From Syntrophaceae bacterium (GTDB lineage Bacteria; Desulfobacterota; Syntrophia; Syntrophales; PHBD01), in the NCBI GenBank assembly GCA_013177825.1, contig JABLXX010000002.1, positions 434,001-498,000 of the forward strand: DNA of 64,000 nucleotides. Reading direction: 5' to 3'. Below, piece by piece: positions 3,890 through 28,095 of this stretch (positions are counted from its first letter, which is position 1; each line of letters opens with the position of its first letter). Made by a program: the position numbers and the translations under genes. The notes under the pieces are model-generated. The model had not been told where the DNA came from. It ran no database searches and worked only from the letters and a program-made list of their open reading frames with translations.

Positions 3890-3918
3890 TTGACACTGCA
3901 GGGGGACCTGCGTATATT
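3890..3918 (+). promoter_or_regulatory. strong sigma70-type promoter of the envelope cluster
   Basis: A consensus TTGACA (3890-3895) is separated by exactly 17 bp from TATATT (3913-3918). It lies 72 bp before the proposed ATG of the first envelope-cluster gene. This is among the best promoter matches in the window. Confidence 0.75.
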
Positions 3919-3989
3919 GGCGACCTTGCTGGTCAATCCATCCCAATCGTGAGGCCATGGCTCTTTTCCCGAAGCACGGAACGCATTCC

Positions 3990-5111
3990 ATGAACTGGAA
4001 GATCTGGACGATCCTGACCGCCGTCCTCCTCGTGATCCTCCCCGCCTCTCCGGGCTTTCCGCAAAACAGGATCCGCGCCGAAGGATCGGCAACCATTCAC
4101 AAAAATTTCAAGGACATCGCCCGGGACCGGGCTGTCGAAAACGCGCAGCGGAACGCCGTGGAACAGGCCGTCGGCGTGATGATCAGCTCCCGGACGGAGG
4201 TCGAGAATTACACCGTCAAGCTGGACCAGATCCTGGCCGAGGCGGACGGCTTCATCAATGCCTATTCCATCGTTTCGGAGAAGCAGGACGGGAAGACCTA
4301 CACGGTGGTCATCGACGCCGACGTCGGCACCGGCCGCCTGCAGGAGCGGATGAAGGCGATCCGGCTCATCGTGTCCCGCAAGGCGAAGCCCCGCCTGATG
4401 ATCCGCTTCAGCGGCGGGGAGGCGAAGGATGCCCTGGCCGAGTCCGTCATGTCCCGGTATTTCATGGAGCAGGGATTTCATGTCGTGGATGCCGAGACAG
4501 TGAAAAAAAATAGCGATGTCGACGAAATGGACAAGGCCGAGGGGGACCGGCGCAAACTCTCCCGAATGGCCCGCGGAATCGGGGCGGAAGTCCTGGTGGC
4601 CGGCCGGGTGGAGACGGCCACCAGCGCATTCACCATCAGCAACATCGAGATGCATTCCAACAAGGTGACCGTCTCGGCCAAGGTCATCAACGGCGACACG
4701 GGAGAAGTCATTGCCGCCGACTCCGCCGCCGCCTCAAAGCCCGGTGTGAAAGGCGACTGGAAGGAGATCACCGAGGATGCCACGGGCAGGCTGTCCCGGG
4801 CCCTCTTCGACGGGATCCTGAGCCGGTGGACCGCCGACCTCGTGAAGGCCTCCACGTTCAAGCTCGTCATATCGGGCCTCGATTCCTACGATGATCTGGT
4901 CTCTTTCAAGGAGCTGATGTCTCATGAAGTCAAAGGGTATCGGGAGGCTCATCAACGTTCCTTCAGCAGGGGGCAGGTTGACCTGGACGTCGAGGTGAGG
5001 GGCACCATCCGGGGATTTGCCGACGATCTTGCCGCCCTGTCCTTCAAATCCCGCAAGGTCAAGATTGTCGAAATTACACAGAACCGGATTCGGGCGAGGC
5101 TCGTCCACTGA
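3990..5111 (+). CDS. secreted LPP20/FlgT-like protein, first gene of the envelope cluster
   Basis: This is an exported protein of 373 residues with an N-terminal signal peptide (NWKIWTILTAVLLVILPASP, cleaved near GFPQN). Residues about 30-120 (EGSATIHKNFKDIARDRAVE through VVIDADV) resemble the LPP20/FlgT N-terminal fold found in outer-membrane-associated proteins. The middle region around IGAEVLVAGRVET looks like the nucleotide-independent CsgG/TolB-N type alpha-beta domain, and the C-terminal stretch (FKLVISGLDSYDDL) is a further small domain. An ATG 33 bases upstream (3957) is in frame, but its GAGG is only two bases away and it would put charged residues before the signal peptide. ATG 3990 is therefore preferred. 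The function is unknown; the context is cell-envelope assembly. Confidence 0.8.
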   Translation: MNWKIWTILTAVLLVILPASPGFPQNRIRAEGSATIHKNFKDIARDRAVENAQRNAVEQAVGVMISSRTEVENYTVKLDQILAEADGFINAYSIVSEKQDGKTYTVVIDADVGTGRLQERMKAIRLIVSRKAKPRLMIRFSGGEAKDALAESVMSRYFMEQGFHVVDAETVKKNSDVDEMDKAEGDRRKLSRMARGIGAEVLVAGRVETATSAFTISNIEMHSNKVTVSAKVINGDTGEVIAADSAAASKPGVKGDWKEITEDATGRLSRALFDGILSRWTADLVKASTFKLVISGLDSYDDLVSFKELMSHEVKGYREAHQRSFSRGQVDLDVEVRGTIRGFADDLAALSFKSRKVKIVEITQNRIRARLVH

Positions 5112-5185
5112 TCCTGCCCTCAGGTCGTTACGGGGGAAGTGCCCGGGTACTTCCCGGCCGATGAATCAACGCGAAGGAGGTTGCC

Positions 5186-7168
5186 ATGCACCGGACTCAC
5201 TGGAAGGAATTCCTGCTCCTGACCGCCCTGCTCCTGCTGGCCGGATGCGCCATGAGCGAGAACTACAAGATGGGCCAGGATCTGATGGGCCAGAACCGTC
5301 CGGAGGAGGCGATCGCCTATTTCGAGGCCGCTGTACTGGAGAGCCGCGACAACACCGAGTATCAGGCCGCCCTTCAGCAGGCGCGGCAGAAGGGCGCCGC
5401 GGGCCGTCTGGAGCGGGTCCGGAAGGCATACGAAGCCCTGAAGGAGCCCGACGCCACGGTCCTCGACCGGGTTTTGAAGGATGCCGATTCCTTGGCCGCA
5501 ATGGATCCCTCCAGCCGCGAGATCAAGGCGTTTCGGGATTCCGTGAAGAATCGGCTCGATGCCCTCCTGGGCCAGGCAAAGAACCTCTATGCCCAGGCGG
5601 ACCTGGACATTCAGAAAGAAGACTGGAACGCGGCCCGCACAAAGCTCCTCCAGGTCAACCGGATTTTCCCGAACTACGAGGAGACCGCAACCAGACTGGC
5701 GCGGGTAAACCAGGAGGGGGCAAGGCAGCTTTACCAGCAGGGGGTTTCCCTCAGCAAGCAGGAGGACTGGAAGACGGCCGCCCAGGCCTTCCAGGCCGCC
5801 ATGGAGATGAACCCCAACTTCCTCGACGTGGCCGCCCTGTACAAAATCGCCGTGGCCAACGACAATGCGGCCTACTTCCTGGGGGAAGGGGAGAAGGCCG
5901 AGAAGGCAAAGCAATGGGACCGGGCGATCTTCTGCTACCAGCGGGCCCGGGAATACGAGCCGAGCAACCAGGATCTCGCCAAGAAGCTGGAAAACCTGAG
6001 AGTGAAAACCGGCCAGATCTTCTTCGAGGAAGCGGAGAAACTGGTGAGCCAGGGAAGATTGAACCCGGCCGTCCGGAAGATCGAATCCGTGAAGCGCTAC
6101 CTGCCGTCCATGCAGGAGGAACCGGTCTTCCGGGACCTGCTGGCCAGGGCGACGTCCCGGCTCATTGAACGGGGCAACCGGTTCAACGAACGGGAGCTGT
6201 GGGGAAACGCCCTGATGTGGTACCAGAAGGCCGAATCCCTGAGTCCGAATCACCCGGAACTCTTCCAGAAAATTCAGGACGCCCGGGAGCGGATCGGCAA
6301 GCGGATCCGCAAGTCCATCGCCGTCTTCGATTTTTCAAGCCCCAGCAACGACAAGGACGCCGGCAAGATGGCGGCGGACAAGCTCGTGGCGTACCTCTAC
6401 CAGAAGGCCAGCAGCGATCTCCGGATCATTGAGCGGGAAAACCTCCAGAACATCCTTCGGGAGATGCAACTCGGCCAGACCGGCCTCGTGGACGTGAAAT
6501 CCGCCCAGGCCATCAAGATGCGCGGCATCGACACCTTTATCATGGGGAACGTCCTGAAGGTCATGGCCACCAAGGCGGATACGGCCAGCAACAACCAGGT
6601 GCGGGTCCTGCTGGACGAGGAGGACGTCCCCAACCCGGAGTGGCAGACCTGGCTGATCATGCATCCCAGGCCCACGAGCGAGGAAATGAAGACGGCTCCG
6701 CCGAAGACGATGAAGAAGCGCAATTACCAGTTCGTCACGTACAAGCAGGGCAACGCACGGATCGTGGCCCTCTTCGACGTATCCTACAAGCTGGTGGACA
6801 CGACCACCGGAGAAAACATCTTCACGAACACCATCGAGGGGCGCCTGATCAAGGAAGACAAATACCAGGACGGCGTTCCCATGGCGAACATCCCCCAGGA
6901 TCCGCTGCAGCTTCCCACGGAAGCGGAGGTCCTGTCCGAGCTGACGAACGGAAAAATCTCGGAGATGGGCCAGAGCGTCCTGAGGCATTTCCAGAGCCTC
7001 GAAGTGGAATACTTCAATGCGGGGGAGCAGCTTCGCAAACGGCGCAAGTTTGAGGAGGCGGTGGAGAAATACGTGGACGCTCTTTACGACATCAAGCTGA
7101 AGGGAATCTCCACGGCGGTGGCCCAGAAATCCCAGGAGATGATCGACGGCCTTCTCCAGGAACAGTAA
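5186..7168 (+). CDS. TPR-CsgG lipoprotein
   Basis: This is a 660-residue lipoprotein. A signal peptide ends in the lipobox LLAGC (Cys22). Residues 25-310 are TPR-like helical repeats (for example NRPEEAIAYFEAAVLE and KQWDRAIFCYQRAREYEP). A CsgG-type domain follows (about 375-570), seen as KSIAVFDFSSPSNDKDAGK, RIIERENLQNILREMQ and GIDTFIMGNV. A final TPR-like helix pair ends the protein. CsgG family proteins form outer-membrane export channels for curli, but many relatives are periplasmic, and pore formation here is not shown. The start has AAGGAGG eight bases ahead. The gene follows the LPP20/FlgT-like gene by 74 bp and precedes a second CsgG-like gene by 13 bp, so the three are probably one operon. 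Confidence 0.88.
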   Translation: MHRTHWKEFLLLTALLLLAGCAMSENYKMGQDLMGQNRPEEAIAYFEAAVLESRDNTEYQAALQQARQKGAAGRLERVRKAYEALKEPDATVLDRVLKDADSLAAMDPSSREIKAFRDSVKNRLDALLGQAKNLYAQADLDIQKEDWNAARTKLLQVNRIFPNYEETATRLARVNQEGARQLYQQGVSLSKQEDWKTAAQAFQAAMEMNPNFLDVAALYKIAVANDNAAYFLGEGEKAEKAKQWDRAIFCYQRAREYEPSNQDLAKKLENLRVKTGQIFFEEAEKLVSQGRLNPAVRKIESVKRYLPSMQEEPVFRDLLARATSRLIERGNRFNERELWGNALMWYQKAESLSPNHPELFQKIQDARERIGKRIRKSIAVFDFSSPSNDKDAGKMAADKLVAYLYQKASSDLRIIERENLQNILREMQLGQTGLVDVKSAQAIKMRGIDTFIMGNVLKVMATKADTASNNQVRVLLDEEDVPNPEWQTWLIMHPRPTSEEMKTAPPKTMKKRNYQFVTYKQGNARIVALFDVSYKLVDTTTGENIFTNTIEGRLIKEDKYQDGVPMANIPQDPLQLPTEAEVLSELTNGKISEMGQSVLRHFQSLEVEYFNAGEQLRKRRKFEEAVEKYVDALYDIKLKGISTAVAQKSQEMIDGLLQEQ

Positions 7169-7181
7169 CAAGGCGGGACCC

Positions 7182-9209
7182 ATGGCCGGATTGGAACGTG
7201 ACAAGGGCCCGTCGGGATCCCCGGGCCGATTTCGGATTCGCGGGATACCCCGTCTGCTCCTGGCGACGCTCGTTATCGCCCTGCTGGCCGTCCCTTCGTC
7301 GAGCCGGTCGGCGGTTCCCGTCAAGACCGCCGTCTTCAATTTCAGCGCCCGCAACCTGGAGGCCTCCGGCTATGGAACGACGGTCACCAACACACTCCTT
7401 GTCCATCTCAAGAACCGGGGAGAATTTTCCGTTCTCGACAGGAAGGAACTGGAGAGCTTTCTTGCGATGAACGATCTCCGGCAGGACGAGCACCTGGACA
7501 ACGTGGCCCTCATCGGGAACCGCCTCGGTCTGAACATCATCGTGACGGGGAGCGTGGAGCGAAACGGGACGATCCTGACGATCCGCTGCAACGTGGTACA
7601 GGTCGAACAGAAAAAGCCCATTCTGGACGTCCGGCTGACCGCCTTCGGAGACGAGGGGCTTGCCCGGGAACTGAACAGCCTGGGTGACATGATCGCCGGC
7701 GCCGTGACGGACCTGGGGCGGGAGCGGGAAGATGCCTTCTCCCTCCGGGCGCCCGTCAACATCCGGAAGAAGTCGGGGAACATGAAGATCCAGCTGTCCT
7801 GGGAGAACCCGCCCGGAGCGGCGGCCATCGCCGGCTGGGAAGTGTTCCGGGGCACCTCCCCGGAAGGACCCTTCGCGCGGATCGCCCAGGTCAACCGCTC
7901 CGAGTTCTGGGACCAGGCGGTGGAACGGAACCGGACGTATCATTACAAGGTCCGCTCCTTCAGCAGCCGGGGCGGATACAGTGAGTTTTCCGCCGTCGTC
8001 GCCGCCGAGTCGGCTCCCACACCGAACCCGCCGGTCATCCTGAGGGCCGACTCACGGGTCCGGAGTGTTCAGCTGGTTCTGCTGCCCAGCCCGGCGCGCG
8101 GCGACGATCCGTTTCGGTTCAAGGGATACAGGCTGTATCGTGCCGGGGAGGAAGGCCCGTTCCGCGAGCTGAAAAACATCCCCGTTCCGGACGCGAGGCC
8201 GGGCATGGACGCCGTGGAGGCGGGCAAAGTGATCGCCGTCGATTCGGCGATCCGGGACGGAGAGCGGTATTATTACCGGGCGACGGCGTACAACGAAAAG
8301 GAACTGGAGAGCGATTATTCCCGCGCCCTCATCGGCTCCGCTCTGCCTCGTGTACAGGATGTCCGGGCGGAGGGGGAGAGGATCCGGGAGATTCCCCTGT
8401 CCTGGAGGGCCGTCCCGTCGCCGTTCATTCGCGGATACCACGTCTACCGGAGCGAGAGCCCCGGCGGAAATTTCGCCGTGATTCTGAGCATCCCAACCAC
8501 CGAGGCCGGAACGGACAGTCGTGTCTCGGTGGTCGATGCGAAAGGGCTGGGAGACAGGAAAACCTATTATTACCGGGTAACGGCCTATGAGGAAGGCGGA
8601 GCCGAAACGACGCCCTCGGAAACCGCGTCGGCGGTCACCCGGGGCAGGCCTCCGACACCCAGGGATTTCAGGGCGGAAGTGGGCCGGGTGAAGCGCATCC
8701 CCCTCGCGTGGCAACCGAGTGCCCTGGATGATGTGCTGGGATACCGCATTTACCGGTCGGTCCGGAAGGAGGGTCCGTTCGAGTCCCTCCGCGTGATATC
8801 GGGCCGACAGTCCGACGGTTACGTTGACGACGGCGGCGCCCTCGGAGACGGGACTGCGTATTTTTACCGGATCACTGCATACAATCGGGTGGACGCCGAG
8901 AGCGAGCCGTCGGAGGTTGTAACGGCGGCGACGAAGGCAAGGCCGAAGCCTCCCGCCGGGTTCCGGGGCGAAACGGAGGGCGGCAAGGCCGTTCTCCGCT
9001 GGCAGGCCAATGCGGAGCCCGATATCGCACGGTACGACATCTTCGAACGGAGTTATTTCGGCCTGGAGAAGATTGCAGCCGCAACCGGTACGTTCCATTC
9101 GCTGGGGGACATGACCAAGGGAAAAAGCAGGGTTTTCTGCCTCCGGGCGGTGGACCGGAGCGGCCTGGAAAGCGAAGCAAGCCCGGAGATCACCGTCACA
9201 GCGCCATAA
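7182..9209 (+). CDS. CsgG-like domain protein with five fibronectin type III repeats
   Basis: This 675-residue exported protein has a hydrophobic signal segment (residues about 25-45, LLLATLVIALLAVPSSS). A CsgG/TolB-N-like domain follows (about 46-180), with VKTAVFNFSARNLE, EFSVLDRKELESFL and NIIVTGSVERNG. The remainder is five consecutive FN3 modules (about 190-275, 285-385, 390-485, 490-585, 588-672). Each carries the recurring GYxVYRSxxxxGPF strand and a YYYRVTAY-type strand. The FN3 array suggests a binding scaffold in the periplasm or at the surface. The start ATG has only a weak purine-rich SD (GGCGGGA), as expected for a gene translated from an operon. No enzyme signature is visible. 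Confidence 0.85.
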   Translation: MAGLERDKGPSGSPGRFRIRGIPRLLLATLVIALLAVPSSSRSAVPVKTAVFNFSARNLEASGYGTTVTNTLLVHLKNRGEFSVLDRKELESFLAMNDLRQDEHLDNVALIGNRLGLNIIVTGSVERNGTILTIRCNVVQVEQKKPILDVRLTAFGDEGLARELNSLGDMIAGAVTDLGREREDAFSLRAPVNIRKKSGNMKIQLSWENPPGAAAIAGWEVFRGTSPEGPFARIAQVNRSEFWDQAVERNRTYHYKVRSFSSRGGYSEFSAVVAAESAPTPNPPVILRADSRVRSVQLVLLPSPARGDDPFRFKGYRLYRAGEEGPFRELKNIPVPDARPGMDAVEAGKVIAVDSAIRDGERYYYRATAYNEKELESDYSRALIGSALPRVQDVRAEGERIREIPLSWRAVPSPFIRGYHVYRSESPGGNFAVILSIPTTEAGTDSRVSVVDAKGLGDRKTYYYRVTAYEEGGAETTPSETASAVTRGRPPTPRDFRAEVGRVKRIPLAWQPSALDDVLGYRIYRSVRKEGPFESLRVISGRQSDGYVDDGGALGDGTAYFYRITAYNRVDAESEPSEVVTAATKARPKPPAGFRGETEGGKAVLRWQANAEPDIARYDIFERSYFGLEKIAAATGTFHSLGDMTKGKSRVFCLRAVDRSGLESEASPEITVTAP

Positions 9210-9241
9210 CGGGGTGGATCCGGTTCCCGGATCAGGAGGAA

Positions 9242-9598
9242 ATGATGACAGACCGGAAGCTGCAAAAAGCGAGTCGGCGAATCGCCGGAGTCGTGAAAAT
9301 TCTGGCTGCGATCGCCGTTGCGGCGGCGTTCCTGGCGGCGTCTCCGATTGCGGGAGCGGCCGAAGGAAGGTATCAGGTCGTGGCCGGAACCGACGAGAAG
9401 GCCTACCTGGTGGACACGAGTACAGGGGCCGTATGGATCCTGACACACCGGGCCATGGCCACGGGCCGCGAGCCCATCGCCATTCCCTACAAGTTCATCA
9501 AGGTATCTCCGAAAATGGCAAATCCGTTCCTGGATGTCGAGACGATCCGGGAGGTTTCCATGCCTCCCGAGAAAGGCAGGGATCGGGAAGCCCGATAG
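9242..9598 (+). CDS. small exported protein
   Basis: This protein of 118 residues has a long N-terminal signal segment (AGVVKILAAIAVAAAFLAA, ending near AGAAEG). It is followed by about 75 exported residues that include YQVVAGTDEKAYLVDTSTG. AGGAGGA sits just ahead of two tandem ATGs (9242 and 9245), and the second has the better spacing. It lies 32 bp after the CsgG-FN3 gene and is probably cotranscribed. I do not recognise the family. The TDEKAYLVDTSTGAVWIL stretch suggests a small beta-rich domain such as one propeller-like blade. Confidence 0.65.
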   Translation: MMTDRKLQKASRRIAGVVKILAAIAVAAAFLAASPIAGAAEGRYQVVAGTDEKAYLVDTSTGAVWILTHRAMATGREPIAIPYKFIKVSPKMANPFLDVETIREVSMPPEKGRDREAR

Positions 9599-9687
9599 CC
9601 TTCGAGTGCGCATGTCCGCATCAAGACAAACCATCCCGCGAAGCGCCGCAGGGCTGGCGGCGAAGCAGACAGACCGGATCGACTGAT

Positions 9688-10455
9688 ATGGTCCATTGTA
9701 TTCCTCCATGCGGGTTCGCCCGCTGCTATGTCCTGTCGGACCGTGAGGGTCTGGCGGTGGTTGACGTCGGCAGTGTCGGCGCGGCGGACGACGTGGTCGG
9801 CTTCATCGGCAGCCAGCCCGGTCTGTCCATGGCCCAGGTCCGTTTTGTCCTGGCCACTCACTTTCACGTCGACCACATCGGGGGAGTGGCCCGTTTCCTC
9901 GAATTCTGCGCTCCCGGCACGAAGGTTTTCCTCCATCCCCTGGCGATGCAATACCTGCAGGGGAAGCGGGAACTCTGCTTCCTCAAGGGGTGGGTTCCGG
10001 GCTTTCTCTCCGCTGCCCTGGTATCGATGGGCTATGTCCGCCGCCTGTCCCATCTGGATTTCGGTCCCCTGGCGGGGATCCCGTTGCCCATCCTGAGGGA
10101 CCGTCGCAGCTTCGGGGTGGATGCGGACAGGCTTCTGGCGCTGAACGGCGGGGGCCGGACGCGTTATCCCCTCGGTTTTGGGGGATGGGAGGTCCTGGAA
10201 ACCCCGGGGCACACGGAAGACTCGATCTGCCTCTACCAGGAGGCGGAGGGACGGCTCCTGACCGGGGATACGATCCTGAATCTGGACGGGATACGGGGAC
10301 CCGAACTGAATCGCTTCTGCTGGAACAAGCGGGAAATCCGCCGTTCCTTCGACATGTTGAAAGCGGAATTGTCGCCCCGGACGCTCTATCCGGGACATGG
10401 GGAAGTATACTCGAGCAACGGGGAGAACGTCCTGTCATTCGTCCGGGCAGCCTGA
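9688..10455 (+). CDS. metallo-beta-lactamase fold hydrolase
   Basis: This is a 255-residue cytosolic-looking hydrolase without a signal peptide. The zinc-binding set of the MBL superfamily is present: THFHVDHIGG, TPGHTEDS (third His), LLTGDTIL (bridging Asp) and LYPGHGEV (last His). Family members include glyoxalase II-like thioesterases and phosphodiesterases; the substrate is unknown. The start is ATG 9688 with no strong SD. It sits among envelope genes but carries no export signal, so it may be a passenger in this cluster. Confidence 0.85.
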   Translation: MVHCIPPCGFARCYVLSDREGLAVVDVGSVGAADDVVGFIGSQPGLSMAQVRFVLATHFHVDHIGGVARFLEFCAPGTKVFLHPLAMQYLQGKRELCFLKGWVPGFLSAALVSMGYVRRLSHLDFGPLAGIPLPILRDRRSFGVDADRLLALNGGGRTRYPLGFGGWEVLETPGHTEDSICLYQEAEGRLLTGDTILNLDGIRGPELNRFCWNKREIRRSFDMLKAELSPRTLYPGHGEVYSSNGENVLSFVRAA

Positions 10456-10570
10456 AGGGAGCAGATGCTCCTTCACCCGGCCGGGACGGGTGGCTCCTGA
10501 TCGGGGCCCGTCCCCCGGATGCACCAGGACGGAATGAGTGAAAAAGACACGGGTTCTGCAAGGAGGAGAC

Positions 10571-13342
10571 ATGAACGACAAGCATCCTGTACCGTGGAAA
10601 GTCCTGGCGGTCGTTTTGCTGCTGCTGATCTGCCAGGGGTGCGCCGTTGTTACCGAGAGCACGGTGGTCACTCCGCCGATCCGGAGCCTGTTCGAGGGCA
10701 CGTACAAGACGGATCCGTTCATGGCCCGGAACATGCCCAAAACCGTGGCCGTCCTTCCCTTCGTCAACGAGGCCGAGAGCCAGAAGGGGTCGGAGGAGGT
10801 CCGCCGGGGATTCTACAACCATTTCAGCTCTCTGCCGTTCGCGGACATGCAACTGCAGCGGGTGGACAGCCTGCTCCGCAAGGCGGATCTGATGGGGGAC
10901 CCGAAGGAACTGTCAAAGAAGACGCCCCAGGAACTGGGGAAGATCCTCGGGGTCGATGCCGTCGTCTACGGGACCGTCTCCAACTTCGACAAGCTCTTCC
11001 TGGCCCTGTACTCCCAGGTCTCCGTGGGGGCCGACGTGAAGATGTACGACACGAAAACGGGCCATTTCCTCTGGAGCGGCAAGCATACGGCCCGGATCCA
11101 TGAGGGCGGCATCTCCACGACGCCCGTGGGAATCGTCGCCGTCGTCATCGCCACGTCCCTCAACATGCGGGACATCCAGCTGCTGCGGGCGTGCGACGAC
11201 CTCTTCCGGGACATGGTGAAGACGATTCCGATACCGAGCCTGGCGGAGGCACTGCGGCCGCCCGCCATCGCACTCCTGACCCAGGACACGAAAAACCTGC
11301 CGAAGAAGGCCGGCGACGAGATCAAGGTGGTCCTCCAGGGTACGCCGAAGATGATGGCCTCCTTCTCGATCGGAGATTACCGGAAGCACATCGACATGCA
11401 GGAGACGGAACCGGGATGGTACCTGGGGACCTACCGGGTGGTTCCGGGGGACAACGTCCGCCAGGCCATCATCACCGGGAGGCTGGCCCTCGCCAACGAT
11501 CCCGGCAACTTCTCCGAGTGGGTGGACGCCGTCGGGTCCGTTTCCCTCAAGACGACGCCGCCCGACGCCCCGGCGAACGCCGCCGCGGTGGGGAGGGACC
11601 GCATCGTCCAGCTTCGCTGGAACCGGTCCACCGATCCGGATCTGGCTGGATACCGGGTCTACCGGAGCGCAACTCCGCTCAGCGGCTATGTCGAGGCGGC
11701 GAAGACGGAATTCACGGAGTTCACGGACAGGGATCCGTCCCTCAGGAACGGAACCGCGTACTACTACCAGATAACCGCCGTCGATCTGGCGGGAAACGAG
11801 AGCACGCGGAAGGGTGCCGTTGCCGGCATGCCCGTCGCGCCGGGACCCACCCCGGTTTCGGGGATCATCGAGGCCGACACCACATGGCACGCCGGTGCCA
11901 GTCCCTATGTCCTGGAAGGGCCGGTGACGGTCCGGGACCAGGCGGTCCTGACCATTCAGCCGGGTACGGAAATCCGCTCCAAGGATGCGCCCCTGACGGT
12001 GGAGGGGCGGTTGATGGCCCGGGGGGACTCGGAGCACATCATCGTCTTCGACTCCGCCCAGGAGGGGAAGATGTGGCCCGGCATCCACTTCCGGAACGTG
12101 AAGGACAAGGAGAACGCCCTGAGCTACGTCCGGATCCGGAACGCCCGGCGGGCCGTCGACTGCGAGGCGTCGTCGCCCGTCGTGGAGTCCTCGGAGCTGA
12201 CGGAAAATGACACGGCCTTCCGGGCCTCCGGGGCCTTTTCCAAACCGCGCCTCCTGAAATCTCGTGTTGCCCGGAACCGGCAATCCGCCGTGATTGCCGT
12301 CGACGGCGCGGAGCCCCTGATTGCGGACAACGCCATCGAGGACAACCTGAACGCAGGCATCCTCGTGGAGCGGGCAGCCCCGGTGATTCAGAGGAACAGC
12401 GTCTCCCGGAACCACGGCTCCGGAATCGTCGTGGCGGGAGGAAATCCCTCCATTACGGAGAACAACGTTTCGGACAACCAGCCGTTCAACGCCCTGGCCC
12501 CCTCCTCCGGCGATTCCGTGAAGGCCCGCGGCAACTGGTGGGGTAGCGCCAAGGGACTGGACGTGCTGGCGGGAGTCCAGGGGAAGGTGGATGTGCAGAG
12601 CATCCTGGGCTCCCCCTGGCCGGGAGGGAAATCCCTTGAACTTCCGGTTCTTCCCTCACGGATCGGAGGCCGCGTAACGGCGGATGCCTATCTGATCCAG
12701 TCGAACAGCCCCTACACGGTCACGAAGGACCTGATCCTCGACGAAGGGGCCGTCCTCACCATCGAGCGGGGCGTCACCGTCCGGTTCGACCAGAACACGG
12801 CCATCGTGGCCGAGAATGGCGGGGTGATCGCCCGGGGCACCCGGGACCTGCCGATCCTGTTCACCGCCTCCGGGGCGTCTCCCTCGCCGGGCTTCTATGT
12901 CAGCGCTTTCCGCCAGGCGAAACCCACGACGGTCAACAGCGCCTTCTCCTGGTGTGTCGTGAAGTACGCCGAGACAGCCTTCGACATTCACTTCGGCAGC
13001 CCCGAGATCAGCCACTGCCACGTGGCCGAGAACAGCCAGTGCGGGGTCTTCTGCCGGAACGACGCCTCCCCCCGCATCTCTTACAACACCTTCACGGGGA
13101 ACCGGGGAGAGGGAGCGGTCAAGTGCGTCGGGGCGTCGCGTCCCCTGATCCAGCGGAACAACTTTGAAAGGAACGAGGTGGCCATTCAGAGCTTCTCTTC
13201 CCTGTACATCGATGCGCGGCAGAACTGGTGGGGCAAGAGCCCGCCGGACATGCGGATGATCTTCGGCGACCCGGAAAAGAACGTGAATATCCGTCCCTGG
13301 CTGGAGAAGCCGGAGCCGGATGCCTTTCGGGAAACGAGATAG
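10571..13342 (+). CDS. GNA1162-like lipoprotein fused to FN3 and right-handed beta-helix modules
   Basis: This is a 923-residue lipoprotein (signal peptide ending ICQGC, Cys22). Residues about 50-230 resemble the GNA1162/DUF799 lipoprotein family (MPKTVAVLPFVNE, GVDAVVYGTVSNF, DTKTGHFLWSGK). A linker with an Ig-like look follows, then one FN3 module (about 335-425: GYRVYRSATPLSGY, YYYQITAVDLAGN). The C-terminal half is two parallel beta-helix blocks (about 440-660 and 685-905). Each opens with a capping segment (LTIQPGTEIRSKD, LTIERGVTVRFDQ), and each ends near the same ARGNWWG or ARQNWWG motif. The start is ATG 10571 with AGGAGGAG four bases ahead. The fusion of a GNA1162-like head to a NosD-like beta-helix is unusual. 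Confidence 0.85.
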   Translation: MNDKHPVPWKVLAVVLLLLICQGCAVVTESTVVTPPIRSLFEGTYKTDPFMARNMPKTVAVLPFVNEAESQKGSEEVRRGFYNHFSSLPFADMQLQRVDSLLRKADLMGDPKELSKKTPQELGKILGVDAVVYGTVSNFDKLFLALYSQVSVGADVKMYDTKTGHFLWSGKHTARIHEGGISTTPVGIVAVVIATSLNMRDIQLLRACDDLFRDMVKTIPIPSLAEALRPPAIALLTQDTKNLPKKAGDEIKVVLQGTPKMMASFSIGDYRKHIDMQETEPGWYLGTYRVVPGDNVRQAIITGRLALANDPGNFSEWVDAVGSVSLKTTPPDAPANAAAVGRDRIVQLRWNRSTDPDLAGYRVYRSATPLSGYVEAAKTEFTEFTDRDPSLRNGTAYYYQITAVDLAGNESTRKGAVAGMPVAPGPTPVSGIIEADTTWHAGASPYVLEGPVTVRDQAVLTIQPGTEIRSKDAPLTVEGRLMARGDSEHIIVFDSAQEGKMWPGIHFRNVKDKENALSYVRIRNARRAVDCEASSPVVESSELTENDTAFRASGAFSKPRLLKSRVARNRQSAVIAVDGAEPLIADNAIEDNLNAGILVERAAPVIQRNSVSRNHGSGIVVAGGNPSITENNVSDNQPFNALAPSSGDSVKARGNWWGSAKGLDVLAGVQGKVDVQSILGSPWPGGKSLELPVLPSRIGGRVTADAYLIQSNSPYTVTKDLILDEGAVLTIERGVTVRFDQNTAIVAENGGVIARGTRDLPILFTASGASPSPGFYVSAFRQAKPTTVNSAFSWCVVKYAETAFDIHFGSPEISHCHVAENSQCGVFCRNDASPRISYNTFTGNRGEGAVKCVGASRPLIQRNNFERNEVAIQSFSSLYIDARQNWWGKSPPDMRMIFGDPEKNVNIRPWLEKPEPDAFRETR

Positions 13343-13356
13343 GACCGGACGAGGGT

Positions 13357-13388
13357 GCTTTTTCCTCCTTGAATTGGGAAAAAGCTTT
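13357..13388 (+). terminator. probable terminator after the beta-helix lipoprotein gene
   Basis: A perfect 9-bp stem (GCTTTTTCC at 13357-13365, GGAAAAAGC at 13377-13385) with an 11-nt loop is followed by only three T residues. The stem is A/T-rich, so termination may be partial. Confidence 0.5.
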
Positions 13389-13447
13389 GTGCTACCCTCC
13401 CTCCCCGACACGAACAAAATTGACTGTATCATCATCAGGAGGTTGAA

Positions 13448-14365
13448 ATGAGATCGAAGGTTCTGGTTTTCGCGGGAGTCCTCGCGGGTGTACTGTTTGT
13501 TCTGACCGGCGCTGGCTTCTGCCAGCAGGGGCAGGCGGCGGGTGACGGCAAGGTAACCCTGGACAAGTGGAACAAGATCATCGAGGCCAAGGTGGCGGAA
13601 ACCACGCCGGACGGAAAGGGTCTCATCAACTATGAGGAAGGCTACATCGAGTCCGTCGGGATCGGAGCTCCTCCCGAGAAGTATTACGGCAAGCCCCAGG
13701 CGCGGCCGATGGCTCTCCGGGCGGCCCAGGTGGACGCATACCGGAACCTCCTGGAGGTGACCAAAGGAGTCCAGATCGATTCCCAGACGACCGTGAAAGA
13801 TTTCGTCACCGAGAGCGACATCATCAGTGCCAGCGTCTCCGGCCTCGTGAAGAACGCCAAGGTAACGAACCGGGAGTACATGTCCGACGGAACGGTTGAA
13901 GTGACCGTGCGGATGTACATGTCCGGGTCGTTCGTCAGGACGATCCTGCCGAAGGCCATCGCCGACGACAAGAAGACCGACATGCCGCCCATGCCCTTGA
14001 GGCCAAAGCCCGGAAAGGCGGAGGATATCTTCACGGGGCTGGTCATTGACGCCCGGGGGCTCGGCGCCCGTCCGGCCATGTCCCCCAAGGTGTTTGACGA
14101 GAACGGGAAGGAAGTGTACGGCACCCTCGTGGTGAACAAGGAATACGCCGTTCAGCAGGGCATCAGCGGGTATGCCCGGGATCTTTCCGCCGCCCAGGGG
14201 AATCCCAGGGTGACGAACAATCCCATAACGGTCAAGGCCATGAGTGCCGAGGGCGCGGGCAAGTCGGATCTGAAGATCGCCTCCGAAGACGCCCAGAAGC
14301 TCCGTGCCGTGAAAGAGAACGTGGCCTTTCTCCAGAAGTGCCGCGTCATGATCGTGCTGGATTGA
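13448..14365 (+). CDS. secreted LPP20-like protein
   Basis: This is a 305-residue exported protein. The signal peptide (VLVFAGVLAGVLFVLTGAG) ends near FCQQG; the cysteine there might be lipidated, but the lipobox is poor. Residues about 80-170 (ARPMALRAAQVDAYRNLLEV, then DGTVEVTVRMYMSG) match the LPP20-type domain, with the alternating helix and strand pattern also seen in the first gene of the cluster. The C-terminal half starts with GLVIDARGLGARPAMSPKVF, a motif often seen downstream of LPP20 domains. AGGAGG lies six bases ahead of the ATG. A hairpin separates it from the beta-helix gene, so it may be partly independent. Confidence 0.8.
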   Translation: MRSKVLVFAGVLAGVLFVLTGAGFCQQGQAAGDGKVTLDKWNKIIEAKVAETTPDGKGLINYEEGYIESVGIGAPPEKYYGKPQARPMALRAAQVDAYRNLLEVTKGVQIDSQTTVKDFVTESDIISASVSGLVKNAKVTNREYMSDGTVEVTVRMYMSGSFVRTILPKAIADDKKTDMPPMPLRPKPGKAEDIFTGLVIDARGLGARPAMSPKVFDENGKEVYGTLVVNKEYAVQQGISGYARDLSAAQGNPRVTNNPITVKAMSAEGAGKSDLKIASEDAQKLRAVKENVAFLQKCRVMIVLD

Positions 14366-17358: not shown

Positions 17359-18513
17359 ATGAACCGCCTACGGTTGGAAAGATGGATGACGGCCCTCTTG
17401 ATCGCATTGCTGGCGGCCGGGATCGCTGCCTGCGGGCTGATGCCGGTCAAACCGGTCAGTGAGATGGATACGCCGGAACATCATTTCTTCCTTGGTCAAA
17501 AAGCCCTGGACGAGGGGCGGATTCAGGATGCGGGAGCCAGCTTCGACCGGGCCCTCCAGCTGGACCCGAAATACTCCAAGGCTCATGCCGGCAAGGGCAT
17601 TGTCGCGGCGTACATGAAGGACCCGAACGGCGCCCTGAAAAACGTGGACAAGGCCTGGTGGCACGCAAGCACGAACGACCAGAAGGCCTACGCCGATATC
17701 GCCTACATCCGGGTCTATACCCTCAACCAGTCCCCTGTGAACTGGCTTGACCTGGCCCGGGAAAAGTTCGATTTCGCCGTTCAGTTCGATCCCCGTTCCT
17801 CCGGTGCCTATTATTTCATGGGGATGGCCTACCGGGCGGCCCTGGAGTTCGAGAAGGCCCGGGGCATGTTCGCCAAGGTGGCCGAGCTGAAGGGGGACTA
17901 CACCGCGCAGGCGGCGGCCCAGTGGGAACTGATGGACAAGATCCAGCGCGCCATGCCGGGAACCGTCACGGGCAGGAAGATCGCCCTCCTGGAGAAGATC
18001 AGCCGGGCCGATGCGGCCGCCCTGTTCATGGAAGAACTGAAAATCGACACGCTCTATGAGCGGCGGACCGTCAAGACCTTCGATACGTCCTTCCGGGAAC
18101 CCGGAAAACTGGCGAAAAAGAGCGTCGCGACCCCGAAGGACGTGGCCGGCCATCCCCTGAAAGCCGACGTTGAGGGACTCCTGAAATACGGCGTGCGGGG
18201 CCTCGAGGTCTATCCCGACGGAACGTTCGATCCCGCGGGTCTCGTGTCACGGGCGGCTTATGCCATGATGATCGAGGACATCCTCATCAAGGTGACGGGG
18301 GACGAGAAACTGGCGACCAAGTTCATCGGCAGCACGTCCACCTTCGGCGACCTGAGGTCCGATCTCCCCTATTTCAACGCCGTCATGGTCGTGACAAGCA
18401 GGGGGATCATGAAGGGAAACCTCGCGACGGGACAGTTCAGCCCGGACGGCGCAGTATCCGGTGTGGATGCGCTCCTGATCATCAAGGAATTCAAGGAGCA
18501 GCTGAAGTTCTGA
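17359..18513 (+). CDS. lipoprotein with TPR and S-layer homology-like domain
   Basis: This is a 384-residue lipoprotein (lipobox IAAC, Cys21). Residues about 35-205 form TPR-like repeats (HHFFLGQKALDEGRIQDAGA, GAYYFMGMAYRAALEFEKAR). The C-terminus from about residue 275 resembles S-layer homology motifs: GLEVYPDGTFDPAGLVSRA, then a second unit GIMKGNLATGQFSPDGAVSG. SLH domains bind cell-wall polymers in Gram-positives and peptidoglycan in some Gram-negatives. An outer-membrane-to-wall tether role is inferred. AAGGAG precedes ATG 17359 by eight bases; an ATG at 17335 is in frame but has no SD. Confidence 0.8.
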   Translation: MNRLRLERWMTALLIALLAAGIAACGLMPVKPVSEMDTPEHHFFLGQKALDEGRIQDAGASFDRALQLDPKYSKAHAGKGIVAAYMKDPNGALKNVDKAWWHASTNDQKAYADIAYIRVYTLNQSPVNWLDLAREKFDFAVQFDPRSSGAYYFMGMAYRAALEFEKARGMFAKVAELKGDYTAQAAAQWELMDKIQRAMPGTVTGRKIALLEKISRADAAALFMEELKIDTLYERRTVKTFDTSFREPGKLAKKSVATPKDVAGHPLKADVEGLLKYGVRGLEVYPDGTFDPAGLVSRAAYAMMIEDILIKVTGDEKLATKFIGSTSTFGDLRSDLPYFNAVMVVTSRGIMKGNLATGQFSPDGAVSGVDALLIIKEFKEQLKF

Positions 18514-22285: not shown

Positions 22286-23083
22286 ATGACGCCGCTGAAC
22301 GGAAAAACCTTTCAGAACATGCCGGCCGGCGGGAGGTTCGGCCGCCCGCTTCATCTGTTCGGCTCCGTGGAATCCACGAACCTGGCGGCGTTGAAGCTTG
22401 CAGCGGCAGGTGCTCCGGAAGGGACTGCCGTCATCGCCGAAGAACAGACGGCGGGCAGGGGGCGTCTCAACCGGACCTGGCAGTCCCCTCCGGGCTGCAA
22501 CCTGTATCTCTCGCTGGTCCTGAGGCCCGCGGTGGAACCGGCAGCGGCACCCCAGTTGACCCTCTTGGCCGGTGCGGCCGTCGCAAAGGCCCTGAACCGC
22601 TGGTGTCCCGGCATCGTCGGCGTAAAATGGCCGAACGACGTGCTGATCCGGGATCGCAAGGTCTGCGGCATCCTCACGGAGCTCCGGCTCTCCGGCGGAG
22701 GGATCTCCTCGGTGATCGTGGGAATCGGCGTCAACGTGAACATCCGGCGCGAAGAGCTGGATCCGGCATTCCGGGACGCCGCCACGTCGCTCCTGGAGGA
22801 GACCGGGACGGAAACGGACCGGACGGCCGTGGCAGCCGCCCTCCTGGAGGAGCTGGAGAACCTCTACGATCTCTGGATCCGGGAGGGATTCGAAGCGGTT
22901 CGGCCGCACTGGCTGCCCTATTCCGTCCTGACGGGAAAGCGCATCCGGGTCGCATTCCAGGACGAAGTGGAGGAAGGCACCGCAGTGGGGCTGGACGAGG
23001 ACGGAGCGCTGATTCTGGAGGAACCCACGGGCGCCCGGAAGCGCGTCCTGGCGGGAGACGCAACCATCTTGAAGGAGTCCTGA
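22286..23083 (+). CDS. biotin--[acetyl-CoA-carboxylase] ligase without DNA-binding domain
   Basis: This enzyme attaches biotin, via biotinyl-AMP, to a lysine on carboxyl carrier proteins. Its 265 residues correspond to the catalytic and C-terminal SH3-like domains only. The biotinyl-AMP loop GRGRLNRTW, the KWPNDVLI motif and CGILTEL are present. There is no N-terminal winged helix, so it cannot act as a repressor. A second ligase with that domain (birA, 27076-28095) lies 4 kb away. One base separates the stop from coaX, so the two are cotranscribed, a pairing seen in many bacteria. Confidence 0.93.
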
Positions 23084-25996: not shown

Positions 25997-27079
25997 GTGG
26001 ACGTCATCGACAGGCTGCAGAAGTGGGCGATCAGGAAAGGGGATCTCGGGACGGAAGAAGGACTGGCCCTTTTCGAGGAGGGCATGGGGCGCCCTTTCCG
26101 CCTCATGGCGGCGGCCTCTGAAATCCGCCGGCACTTCAAGGGCGATGCCGTCGGTCTCTGCGTCATCTCCAATGCAAAATCCGGCCGGTGCCCCGAGGAC
26201 TGCGCCTTCTGCGCCCAGTCTTCCCATTATGCAACCGAGGCGGCGATCTATCCGCTGAAGAAGGCGGCGCAGATTGTCGTCGAGGCCGCAGATGCCCGGC
26301 GGGCCGGGGCCGAGATGTTCGGCATCGTCACGAGCGGCAAGCGGATCGGGGTCGCGCGGGAGTGGGCGGAGATCCGGAAGGCCGTCGGCGGAATCAGCGA
26401 CCTGGGCCTCAAGGCCTGTGCCTCCCTGGGGATCCTCGACGCCGGACGGGCGCGGGACCTGAAGGAGGCGGGTCTCTACCGCTACCATCACAACCTGGAG
26501 ACGTCCCGCAGCTTCTTCCCGAAGATCTGTACGACCCACGACTACCAAGAAGACGTGGAAACGATCCGGACGGCGAAGCGGGCCGGACTGTCCGTCTGCT
26601 CGGGCGGGCTGATCGGCCTGGGGGAGGGCGTCACCCACCGGATCGAGATGGCCCTGACCCTGCGGGAACTGGACGTGGACTCGGTGCCGATCAACATCCT
26701 CCATCCCGTTAAGGGAACGCCCCTTGGAGGAAGCAGGCCTCTGCCGCCCCTGGAGATCCTGGTCACCGTCGCCGTGTTCCGCTTTCTCCTGCCGGACCGG
26801 GACCTGAAGCTCTGCGGGGGGAAGGAAAGGAACCTGCGCCAGCTTCTTCCCCTGGGCCTCGTAGCGGGCTGCAACTCCCTGATGACGGGGAATTACCTGA
26901 CGACCACCGGGCGGGAGAGCTCCCTCGACCACGAGATGATCGCGGACCTCGGCCTCCAGCCGACCCGGGAACAGGACCTGTGCCGCTGCGGTGCGGGGGG
27001 AGGGGGGTGCGCCTCCGAATCCTGCGGGACCGTACCCGATCTCCGGTCCCGGAAGGCCCGAAAGGAGCGGATCGCGTGA
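25997..27079 (+). CDS. bioB: biotin synthase, atypical auxiliary-cluster site
   Basis: BioB inserts sulfur into dethiobiotin using S-adenosylmethionine radicals. The radical SAM cluster motif is intact (Cys65, Cys69, Cys72 in GRCPEDCAFC), and HHNLETS and VCSGGLIGLGE are conserved. Of the residues that hold the [2Fe-2S] sulfur donor in E. coli BioB (Cys97, Cys128, Cys188, Arg260), the equivalents of Cys128 and Cys188 are present (Cys141, Cys201). The Cys97 equivalent is Gly109 and the Arg260 equivalent is Lys271. The last 35 residues add four cysteines (329, 331, 338, 343) in a glycine-rich tail. The protein is 360 residues. It starts at GTG 25997 after GGAAGGAA, and its stop overlaps the birA start (GTGA). 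Confidence 0.93.
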   Translation: MDVIDRLQKWAIRKGDLGTEEGLALFEEGMGRPFRLMAAASEIRRHFKGDAVGLCVISNAKSGRCPEDCAFCAQSSHYATEAAIYPLKKAAQIVVEAADARRAGAEMFGIVTSGKRIGVAREWAEIRKAVGGISDLGLKACASLGILDAGRARDLKEAGLYRYHHNLETSRSFFPKICTTHDYQEDVETIRTAKRAGLSVCSGGLIGLGEGVTHRIEMALTLRELDVDSVPINILHPVKGTPLGGSRPLPPLEILVTVAVFRFLLPDRDLKLCGGKERNLRQLLPLGLVAGCNSLMTGNYLTTTGRESSLDHEMIADLGLQPTREQDLCRCGAGGGGCASESCGTVPDLRSRKARKERIA

Positions 27080-28095
27080 CGGCAGCCGGTTCCGGATCCG
27101 TTTCGGGAAGGGAGCTCCTGCTGCTCCACTTGAAGCAGGGCCGGGGGGCCTGGGTCTCCGGCCAGTTCCTGAGCGAGCGGATGGCCATGACCCGGTCCGC
27201 CGTCTGGAAGCAGATCGGCGCCCTGAAGGCGGACGGATACGTGATCGAGTCGTCCACCCGCAAGGGGTACCGTCTCATCGGCGTTCCCGATCTGCTCCGG
27301 ATCGAAGAGGTGCGGGACGGGCTTCGGACGCGGGTCCTGGGACGGACGGAGGCCCGGCATTACCGGGAGACCGATTCCACGAACTCCAGGGCCCGGGAGC
27401 TGGCCGCCGGGGGAGCCCCGGAGGGGACGCTGGTGGTGGCGGAGGAGCAGAGCAGCGGGCGGGGAAGAAGGGAGCGAACCTGGTTTTCGCCTCCCTTCCT
27501 GGGAATCTATGCATCCCTGGTCCTGCGGCCCTCCATTCCGCCCGGCGAGGCGCCCCGCATGGCCATCCTGGCAGCGGTGGCCGTGGCCGACGCCCTCCGT
27601 TCGGAGACGGGCCTCCCGGTGACCATCAAGTGGCCCAACGACATCCTGGCGGGGGGGCGGAAGATCGCCGGCATCCTCATGGAACTGGCCACGGACATGG
27701 GCGCCGTCGACTACCTGGTGATCGGTACGGGGATCAACGTGAACGTTCCGGCCGGAGTGTTCCCACGGGAGATCCGCCCCCTGGCGACGAGCGTCCTCGT
27801 CGAGACGGGGAAGCCGTTTCCGCGGGTGCGGCTGTTGCGCCGCTGTCTCGAATCATTCGAATCCTGCTGCGATCTCTTCGCGGCGGAGGGGTTCTCCCCC
27901 CTCCTGGCGCGCTGGAAGTCCATGAGCAGCATGATCGGAAAACCGGTCGTCGTCCATGTCCCCGGCCGGGACCTGGCGGGCATTGTGGCCGATATCGATG
28001 AAAACGGGTTTCTGCTGCTCCGGGACGACGGGGGCCGCGACCACCGGATCTTCTCCGGCGATGTGACCCTCCCGACTGGAATCGAGAAAGGATAA
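27076..28095 (+). CDS. birA: bifunctional biotin ligase / biotin operon repressor
   Basis: This 339-residue protein has an N-terminal winged helix-turn-helix (about 10-70: SERMAMTRSAVWKQIGALKA, then STRKGYRL), followed by the ligase core (EEQSSGRGRRERTW, IKWPNDILAGG, KIAGILMEL) and the C-terminal SH3-like domain. It is predicted to biotinylate carboxylases and, as a biotinyl-AMP-bound dimer, to bind the operator at 25911-25942 and repress its own operon. Its GTG overlaps the bioB stop, with AAAGGAGCGG as SD. It is one of two biotin ligases in the window and the only one with a DNA-binding domain. Confidence 0.95.
   Translation: MTAAGSGSVSGRELLLLHLKQGRGAWVSGQFLSERMAMTRSAVWKQIGALKADGYVIESSTRKGYRLIGVPDLLRIEEVRDGLRTRVLGRTEARHYRETDSTNSRARELAAGGAPEGTLVVAEEQSSGRGRRERTWFSPPFLGIYASLVLRPSIPPGEAPRMAILAAVAVADALRSETGLPVTIKWPNDILAGGRKIAGILMELATDMGAVDYLVIGTGINVNVPAGVFPREIRPLATSVLVETGKPFPRVRLLRRCLESFESCCDLFAAEGFSPLLARWKSMSSMIGKPVVVHVPGRDLAGIVADIDENGFLLLRDDGGRDHRIFSGDVTLPTGIEKG

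Follow-up and report, generated by a model that had tools for sequence, protein, structure and literature searches.

The proteins FlgP, FlgO and FlgT have been known as accessories of the flagellum. Together, the three are described as making up the H ring of Vibrio (PMC6375700), and a 2025 account of the Campylobacter motor states that, within the FlgP family, the ability to form rings correlates with an insertion that separates the helix from the second strand of the SHS2 domain (PMC12222027). Another relevant structure is that of Treponema Tp0624 (PDB ID: 5jir), whose report calls the second domain previously uncharacterised and the third, C-terminal one OmpA-like (PMC5104382). According to a 2018 survey, homology search found none of the flagellar accessory proteins it sought in deltaproteobacteria (PMC5758724). 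Profile and fold comparison now finds FlgP- and FlgT-type proteins in these bacteria, where they occur irrespective of flagella and in tight linkage with a lipoprotein that has SLH domains. No paper describing the gene cluster that encodes them was found among the open-licence papers searched, as judged by titles or the beginnings of abstracts.

The cluster was analysed within a stretch of 64,000 nucleotides (contig C2, positions 434001-498000; hereafter the window) of a 4.24 Mb genome. It follows pgk, truA and rmlD, and mutL and miaA lie 3' of its gene G. A sequence-only reading of this DNA had listed seven open reading frames, here named A to G, and all of them are present on the plus strand at the same coordinates; an eighth gene that it overlooked, H, also belongs to the cluster. 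A sigma-70-like promoter sequence, TTGACA-17-TATATT (3890-3918, plus strand), precedes A, matches the consensus at 11 of 12 positions and is the best of four promoter-like sites, compared with 2.4 (sd 1.7) such sites in shuffled sequences. Its -35 element and flanks are conserved in the nearest relative, which has TTGACA upstream of A (L057), and its -10 element is less well kept. Signal-peptide-like N-termini are present in A, C, D and G, none of which has a conserved lipobox cysteine, and alignments of relatives reveal an invariant N-terminal cysteine in B (Cys21), F (Cys24) and H (Cys25). Elsewhere in the window, two genes of the biotin/lipoate protein ligase family (22286-23083 and 26980-28095) lie less than 6 kb apart on either side of a radical SAM BATS-domain gene.

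Conservation was assessed over 27 distinct Syntrophales loci, that is, 31 loci minus L057, L058, L061 and L062, which repeat L037, L038, L039 and L042. In 23 of these, rmlD and mutL enclose the gene order A-B-C-(D)-(E)-F-G on a single strand, with A visible in 22 (it lies past the contig end in L054). These 23 comprise every locus showing both the A-B-C and the F-G parts, and order and strand are the same in all of them; F and G are on other contigs in L043 and L052, and the contig ends first in L055 and L059. In L047, L055 and L056 the frame of A, B or C is interrupted. The cluster is a real, conserved envelope unit of exported proteins, which supports this part of the sequence-only reading, and the retention of the order in relatives removes the objection it had itself foreseen, which required an order kept in no relative. 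B is 81% identical in the nearest named relative, the metagenome-assembled genome HGW-Deltaproteobacteria-19, and other matches are named Syntrophales or Syntrophaceae. Relative to the nearest relative, dN/dS ranges from 0.07 to 0.28 over all cluster genes, being lowest in G (0.07), H (0.10) and F (0.12) and highest in C (0.28); C is also the fastest-evolving gene by identity (67%) and F is among the slowest (93%).

In three relatives lacking B (G018, G050 and G043), E and F follow rmlD at the corresponding position with A-D missing, and G-mutL is kept behind them in two of the three, which marks A-B-C-D as a separable cassette. Among 60 relatives, B is present in 24 (E < 1e-60, after five further genomes with weak CsgG-only matches at E <= 0.001 were dropped), F in 30 and both in 23 (Fisher p 3.4e-9, ignoring common descent). 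In one Syntrophales locus, G is present a second time behind mutL, inverted and split into two pieces (L041:16650-17557).

Across 395 sampled Desulfobacterota genomes, which are mostly fragmented and for which the statistics ignore shared descent, B was detected in 25 (E <= 1e-20), G in 75 (1e-15) and H in 78 (1e-20), and G and H occur together in 61. Outside the order, G and H lie within 600 bp of each other in at least 49 of the 53 genomes having both, some secondary G and partial H matches having been left out of this count, and the median gap is 122 bp. Within the order (8 genomes) the two are 2.9-3.9 kb apart in six and on different contigs in two; mutL and miaA lie between them wherever such a locus was read. 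In L136 and L137 mutL-miaA is directly followed by G-H. The A-B or A-B-C adjacency is kept in most of the stronger loci (L092-L103), and the weakest (L104-L106 and L108-L111) show only B; in 4 of the 25 genomes with B, no G match was obtained at the cut-off used. G-H is the most conserved unit, to which A-B-C-D is a separable addition. The sequence-only reading had also stated that CsgG-like and GNA1162 genes often sit together in proteobacteria, and genes of these two kinds are indeed adjacent at other loci of the phylum (L092, L093 and L137). Genomes of one family, f40 (G078, G115, G206, G230, G253 and G275), yield up to six matches to gene G each, some of them partial, so that the FlgP-like family may have expanded there.

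In other families, genes for FecR-domain, DUF4384 and CHASE2-cyclase proteins lie beside the envelope genes (L099:12456-16622, L104:14266-17459 and L134:8180-10432), with FecR genes in this position also in L092, L102 and L133, and transglutaminase-like proteins are encoded beside the module outside the order (L099:2560-4227, L100:6313-7962 and L104:12250-14007). The recurrence of FecR, DUF4384 and CHASE2 neighbours suggests a sensing partner. No signalling role is proposed on account of these four kinds of neighbour (L092, L099, L100, L102, L104, L133 and L134), since they are absent from the window cluster and the DUF4384 and CHASE2 genes of the genome under study are located elsewhere.

G (13448-14365) encodes an exported protein with an SHS2 domain of the FlgP family and a second domain as in Tp0624. 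Its profile matches FlgP-type chains (9hmf_C, 1e-14; 9yec, 1.7e-9; 8z5n_2, labelled FlgP, 6.4e-9), of which 9hmf_C, labelled 'Lipoprotein, putative', is presumably Campylobacter FlgP, and also Tp0624 (1.7e-6), across both N-terminal domains of the latter. Judged by sequence, the alignments to 9hmf_C and 8z5n_2 are gapless over the hairpin between the SHS2 helix and the second strand. No conserved N-terminal cysteine, as in the FlgP-type lipid anchor, was found among 11 aligned G proteins. The partner of G, H (17359-18513, plus strand), separated from it here by mutL and miaA, is a lipoprotein with TPR and SLH matches in Pfam. SLH domains are able to bind polymers other than peptidoglycan. In one locus outside the order, a CsgG-TPR-SLH fusion protein is encoded next to G (L100).

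The product of A (3990-5111; the reading frame opens at 3957) is exported and comprises an SHS2/FlgT_N domain, a TolB-N-like middle domain and a C-terminal alpha/beta domain. Pfam FlgT_N is matched at 38.6 bits (cut-off 28.8) and in all 11 relatives of A. G matches LPP20 at 22.7 bits, under the cut-off of 25.9, and 10 of the 11 relatives of G match that family. In Foldseek, the top PDB matches of the AlphaFold model of A are FlgT (3w1e, E 4.7e-12) and a chain of the LPHT ring (8z5n_0, E 7.5e-12), followed by GNA1162, CsgG, LptE and PelC, and the VIA Z scores are 12.7 for FlgT and 12.1 for PelC. The model has a pLDDT of 71.7, below 50 in the hairpin region, and its whole-chain TM-score against FlgT is only 0.31; the Foldseek alignment to FlgT spans the C-terminal domain, and the VIA alignment to 3w1e ends at residue 283. 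A is FlgT-like in its predicted fold, with FlgT_N followed by a TolB-N-like domain, as in FlgT, and its alignment to FlgP-type chains is gapless across the hairpin stretch. Since the fold of the middle domain fits FlgT, TolB-N and the ring-former PelC equally with CsgG, A may be able to oligomerise. Profile-profile comparison relates A to G with a probability of 83.7%, as against 4.2% for A and CsgG and 0.5% for A and B.

B (5186-7168) is a lipoprotein composed of a TPR solenoid and a CsgG-family domain with polar inserts; the CsgG match (31.7 bits, cut-off 20.8; found in 11 of 11 B relatives) covers only positions 18-99 of the 210 in the profile, and the structure model is reliable in the TPR solenoid alone, the CsgG-type domain being of low confidence. 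C (7182-9209, the true start probably lying further in) is exported and combines a TolB-N/CsgG-like domain, which scores slightly under the cut-off (19.7 against 20.8 bits; matched in 3 of 10 C relatives), with five FN3 repeats (Pfam fn3, 54.4 bits); most relatives are longer by about 95 residues, or one FN3. F (10571-13342; the reading frame opens at 10538) is a lipoprotein in which a GNA1162-like domain (50.6 bits, cut-off 25.9; present in 11 of 11 F relatives; profile match to the GNA1162 structure 4hrv at 1.1e-11) is joined to FN3 and two beta-helix blocks (Beta_helix in two stretches, and NosD). The probabilities from profile-profile comparison are low for B against C (6.5%), F (12.2%) and E. 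coli CsgG (1.2%) and for F against CsgG (1.4%), and reach 53% for C against CsgG; the low values, those of A included, probably reflect shallow alignments (Neff about 2). D (9242-9598), found in 15 of the 27 Syntrophales loci, encodes a small exported protein with no match to a Pfam family, and a cadherin-like assignment was set aside, the PDB matches being weak (E 0.0073 and worse). E (9688-10455) is the enzyme of the metallo-beta-lactamase fold (Pfam Lactamase_B) that the sequence-only reading had counted in the cluster. The gene is indeed there, but its product shows no visible signal sequence or lipobox cysteine and it is optional, occurring in 11 of the 27 loci; E is probably a neighbour of the cluster and not a component.

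Our best reading, with a probability of about 0.5, is that the cluster encodes a periplasmic scaffold, probably ring-forming, with an anchor in the outer membrane and a link to the wall. Attachment to the outer membrane would be provided by the lipoproteins B, F and H, and attachment to peptidoglycan by the SLH domain of H. The SHS2 domains and hairpins of G, of the FlgP family, and of the FlgT-like A would let these two proteins assemble into rings or arcs, more ring or docking layers would come from the TolB-N/CsgG-type domains of A, B, C and F, and TPRs, FN3 strings and beta-helices would act as spacers and binding arms. Such a structure would brace the membrane against the wall or serve as a collar for another envelope machine. 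This reading is supported by the matches of G to FlgP-type chains and Tp0624 and of the A model to FlgT, by the gapless alignment of both proteins to FlgP-type chains over the hairpin, by the SLH domain of H, the G-H linkage, the fusion protein adjoining G in L100 and the OmpA-like end reported for Tp0624, and by the amidase genes beside F described below, the co-occurrence of B and F (23 of 60 relatives) and the lack of a link to FlgH. It is weakened by the middling quality of the A model, by the low confidence of the CsgG-type domain of B, by the missing FlgP lipid anchor of G, by the capacity of SLH domains for other polymers and by the genomes that have B without G.

The scaffold has to be weighed against the export pore that the sequence-only reading favoured, in which the CsgG-like domains of B, C or both form an outer-membrane channel and the FN3 and beta-helix parts hold its cargo. 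The family match of B, the presence of CsgG among the fold matches of A and the precedent of PelC, described as a lipoprotein ring serving an exporter (PMC12141448), speak for such a pore. We took the positions of the CsgG membrane hairpins to be those of its known structure; in the alignment to E. coli CsgG, the strands of C follow one another directly and leave no space for the two hairpins, and B carries at the corresponding sites inserts of 68 and 24 residues that are 26% and 25% charged and contain 6 and 4 prolines, so that, as far as can be told from its residues, B lacks recognisable CsgG membrane hairpins. No evident membrane barrel was seen in any protein of the set, and CsgE was found in none of the 60 relatives, with the E. 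coli positive control detected. The pore was accordingly abandoned as the best reading, and we now regard it as improbable. A flagellar accessory is another candidate, given that A and G are homologous to H-ring proteins and that FlgH and flagellin occur in the same genome; those two genes, however, are on another contig (C4). FlgH is no commoner in carriers of the cluster, whether among the 60 relatives (14 of 24 B carriers against 20 of 36 others, p 1.0) or in the phylum (35 of 61 G+H carriers against 200 of 334 others, p 0.78), and neither FlgH nor flagellin is present in 10 of the 24 B carriers, with A adjoining B in these loci. The cluster genes are independent of flagella, and a flagellar accessory was rejected on co-occurrence; that they encode an accessory ring retained by some lineages after flagellum loss is very improbable.

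The main rival, which we consider unlikely, is control of wall enzymes. B, C and F would use their TolB-N/LpoB-type domains to activate or inhibit peptidoglycan synthases or amidases from the outer membrane, the FN3 and beta-helix parts serving as spacers. This rival draws on a weak match of F to LpoB (TIGR02722, 1.3e-4, far under the cut-off), on matches to LpoB in the neighbouring CsgG and GNA1162 genes of L092, on a gene for TPRs and an N-acetylmuramoyl-L-alanine amidase (Amidase_3) adjoining F in L128 and L133, and on the SLH domain of H. On the other hand, there is no amidase or PBP gene among A-H of the window, which recur in 27 loci, the LpoB matches are weak, and the FlgP/FlgT-type domains are left unexplained. 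A surface adhesin or matrix module, in which F and C bind polysaccharide or partner cells at the cell surface with A, B, G and H as assembly factors, would account for the FN3 tandem, the beta-helix domains and the rapid evolution of C, but the slow evolution of F, which carries FN3 and beta-helix alike, is not what would be expected of a surface protein, and we give this explanation little credence.

The periplasmic scaffold is retained as the preferred reading: a cluster kept together in many anaerobic bacteria, some of them without flagellum genes, which probably encodes an unstudied, ring-forming scaffold lying between outer membrane and wall. In its boldest form, put forward only tentatively, it would be a flagellum-independent outer-membrane ring machine of Desulfobacterota, made of FlgP/FlgT-type ring proteins and a peptidoglycan-binding SLH lipoprotein, with CsgG/GNA1162 lipoproteins, FN3 strings and beta-helices as further layers. 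Were this true, flagellar H rings and basal disks would be one case in which an envelope ring of more general use had been borrowed. Should the FlgP- and FlgT-type proteins described here prove to form rings, it becomes possible to test where flagellar outer-membrane rings originated. It would also give a concrete hypothesis for an uncharacterised envelope system that is large, judging by the spread of G and H through the phylum.

Among known systems, the CsgG curli pore shares the first half of the CsgG profile with B and, weakly, with C, but differs in its membrane hairpins, which are not recognisable in B and C, and in its CsgE, which the relatives lack. The PelBC exopolysaccharide exporter resembles the cluster in the TolB-N-type fold of PelC, as in the middle domain of A, and in TPRs, as in B, but the cluster has no PelB-type barrel. 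The N-terminal domain of F resembles the GNA1162 lipoprotein and LpoB, and F adds to it FN3 and two beta-helix blocks. A has the first two domains of Vibrio FlgT in the same order, yet adjoins TPR-CsgG and CsgG-FN3 genes and not flagellar ones. Tp0624 is matched by G in both N-terminal domains, but is reported to carry its own C-terminal OmpA-like domain, where G instead adjoins a separate SLH protein. The scaffold would work like the flagellar outer-membrane rings, and G shares with the FlgP of the basal disk and H ring (Vibrio, Campylobacter and Helicobacter) both export and the SHS2 domain with its hairpin insert; it differs in having neither a flagellar association nor a conserved lipid anchor, and in possessing an additional Tp0624-type second domain and an SLH lipoprotein as its partner.
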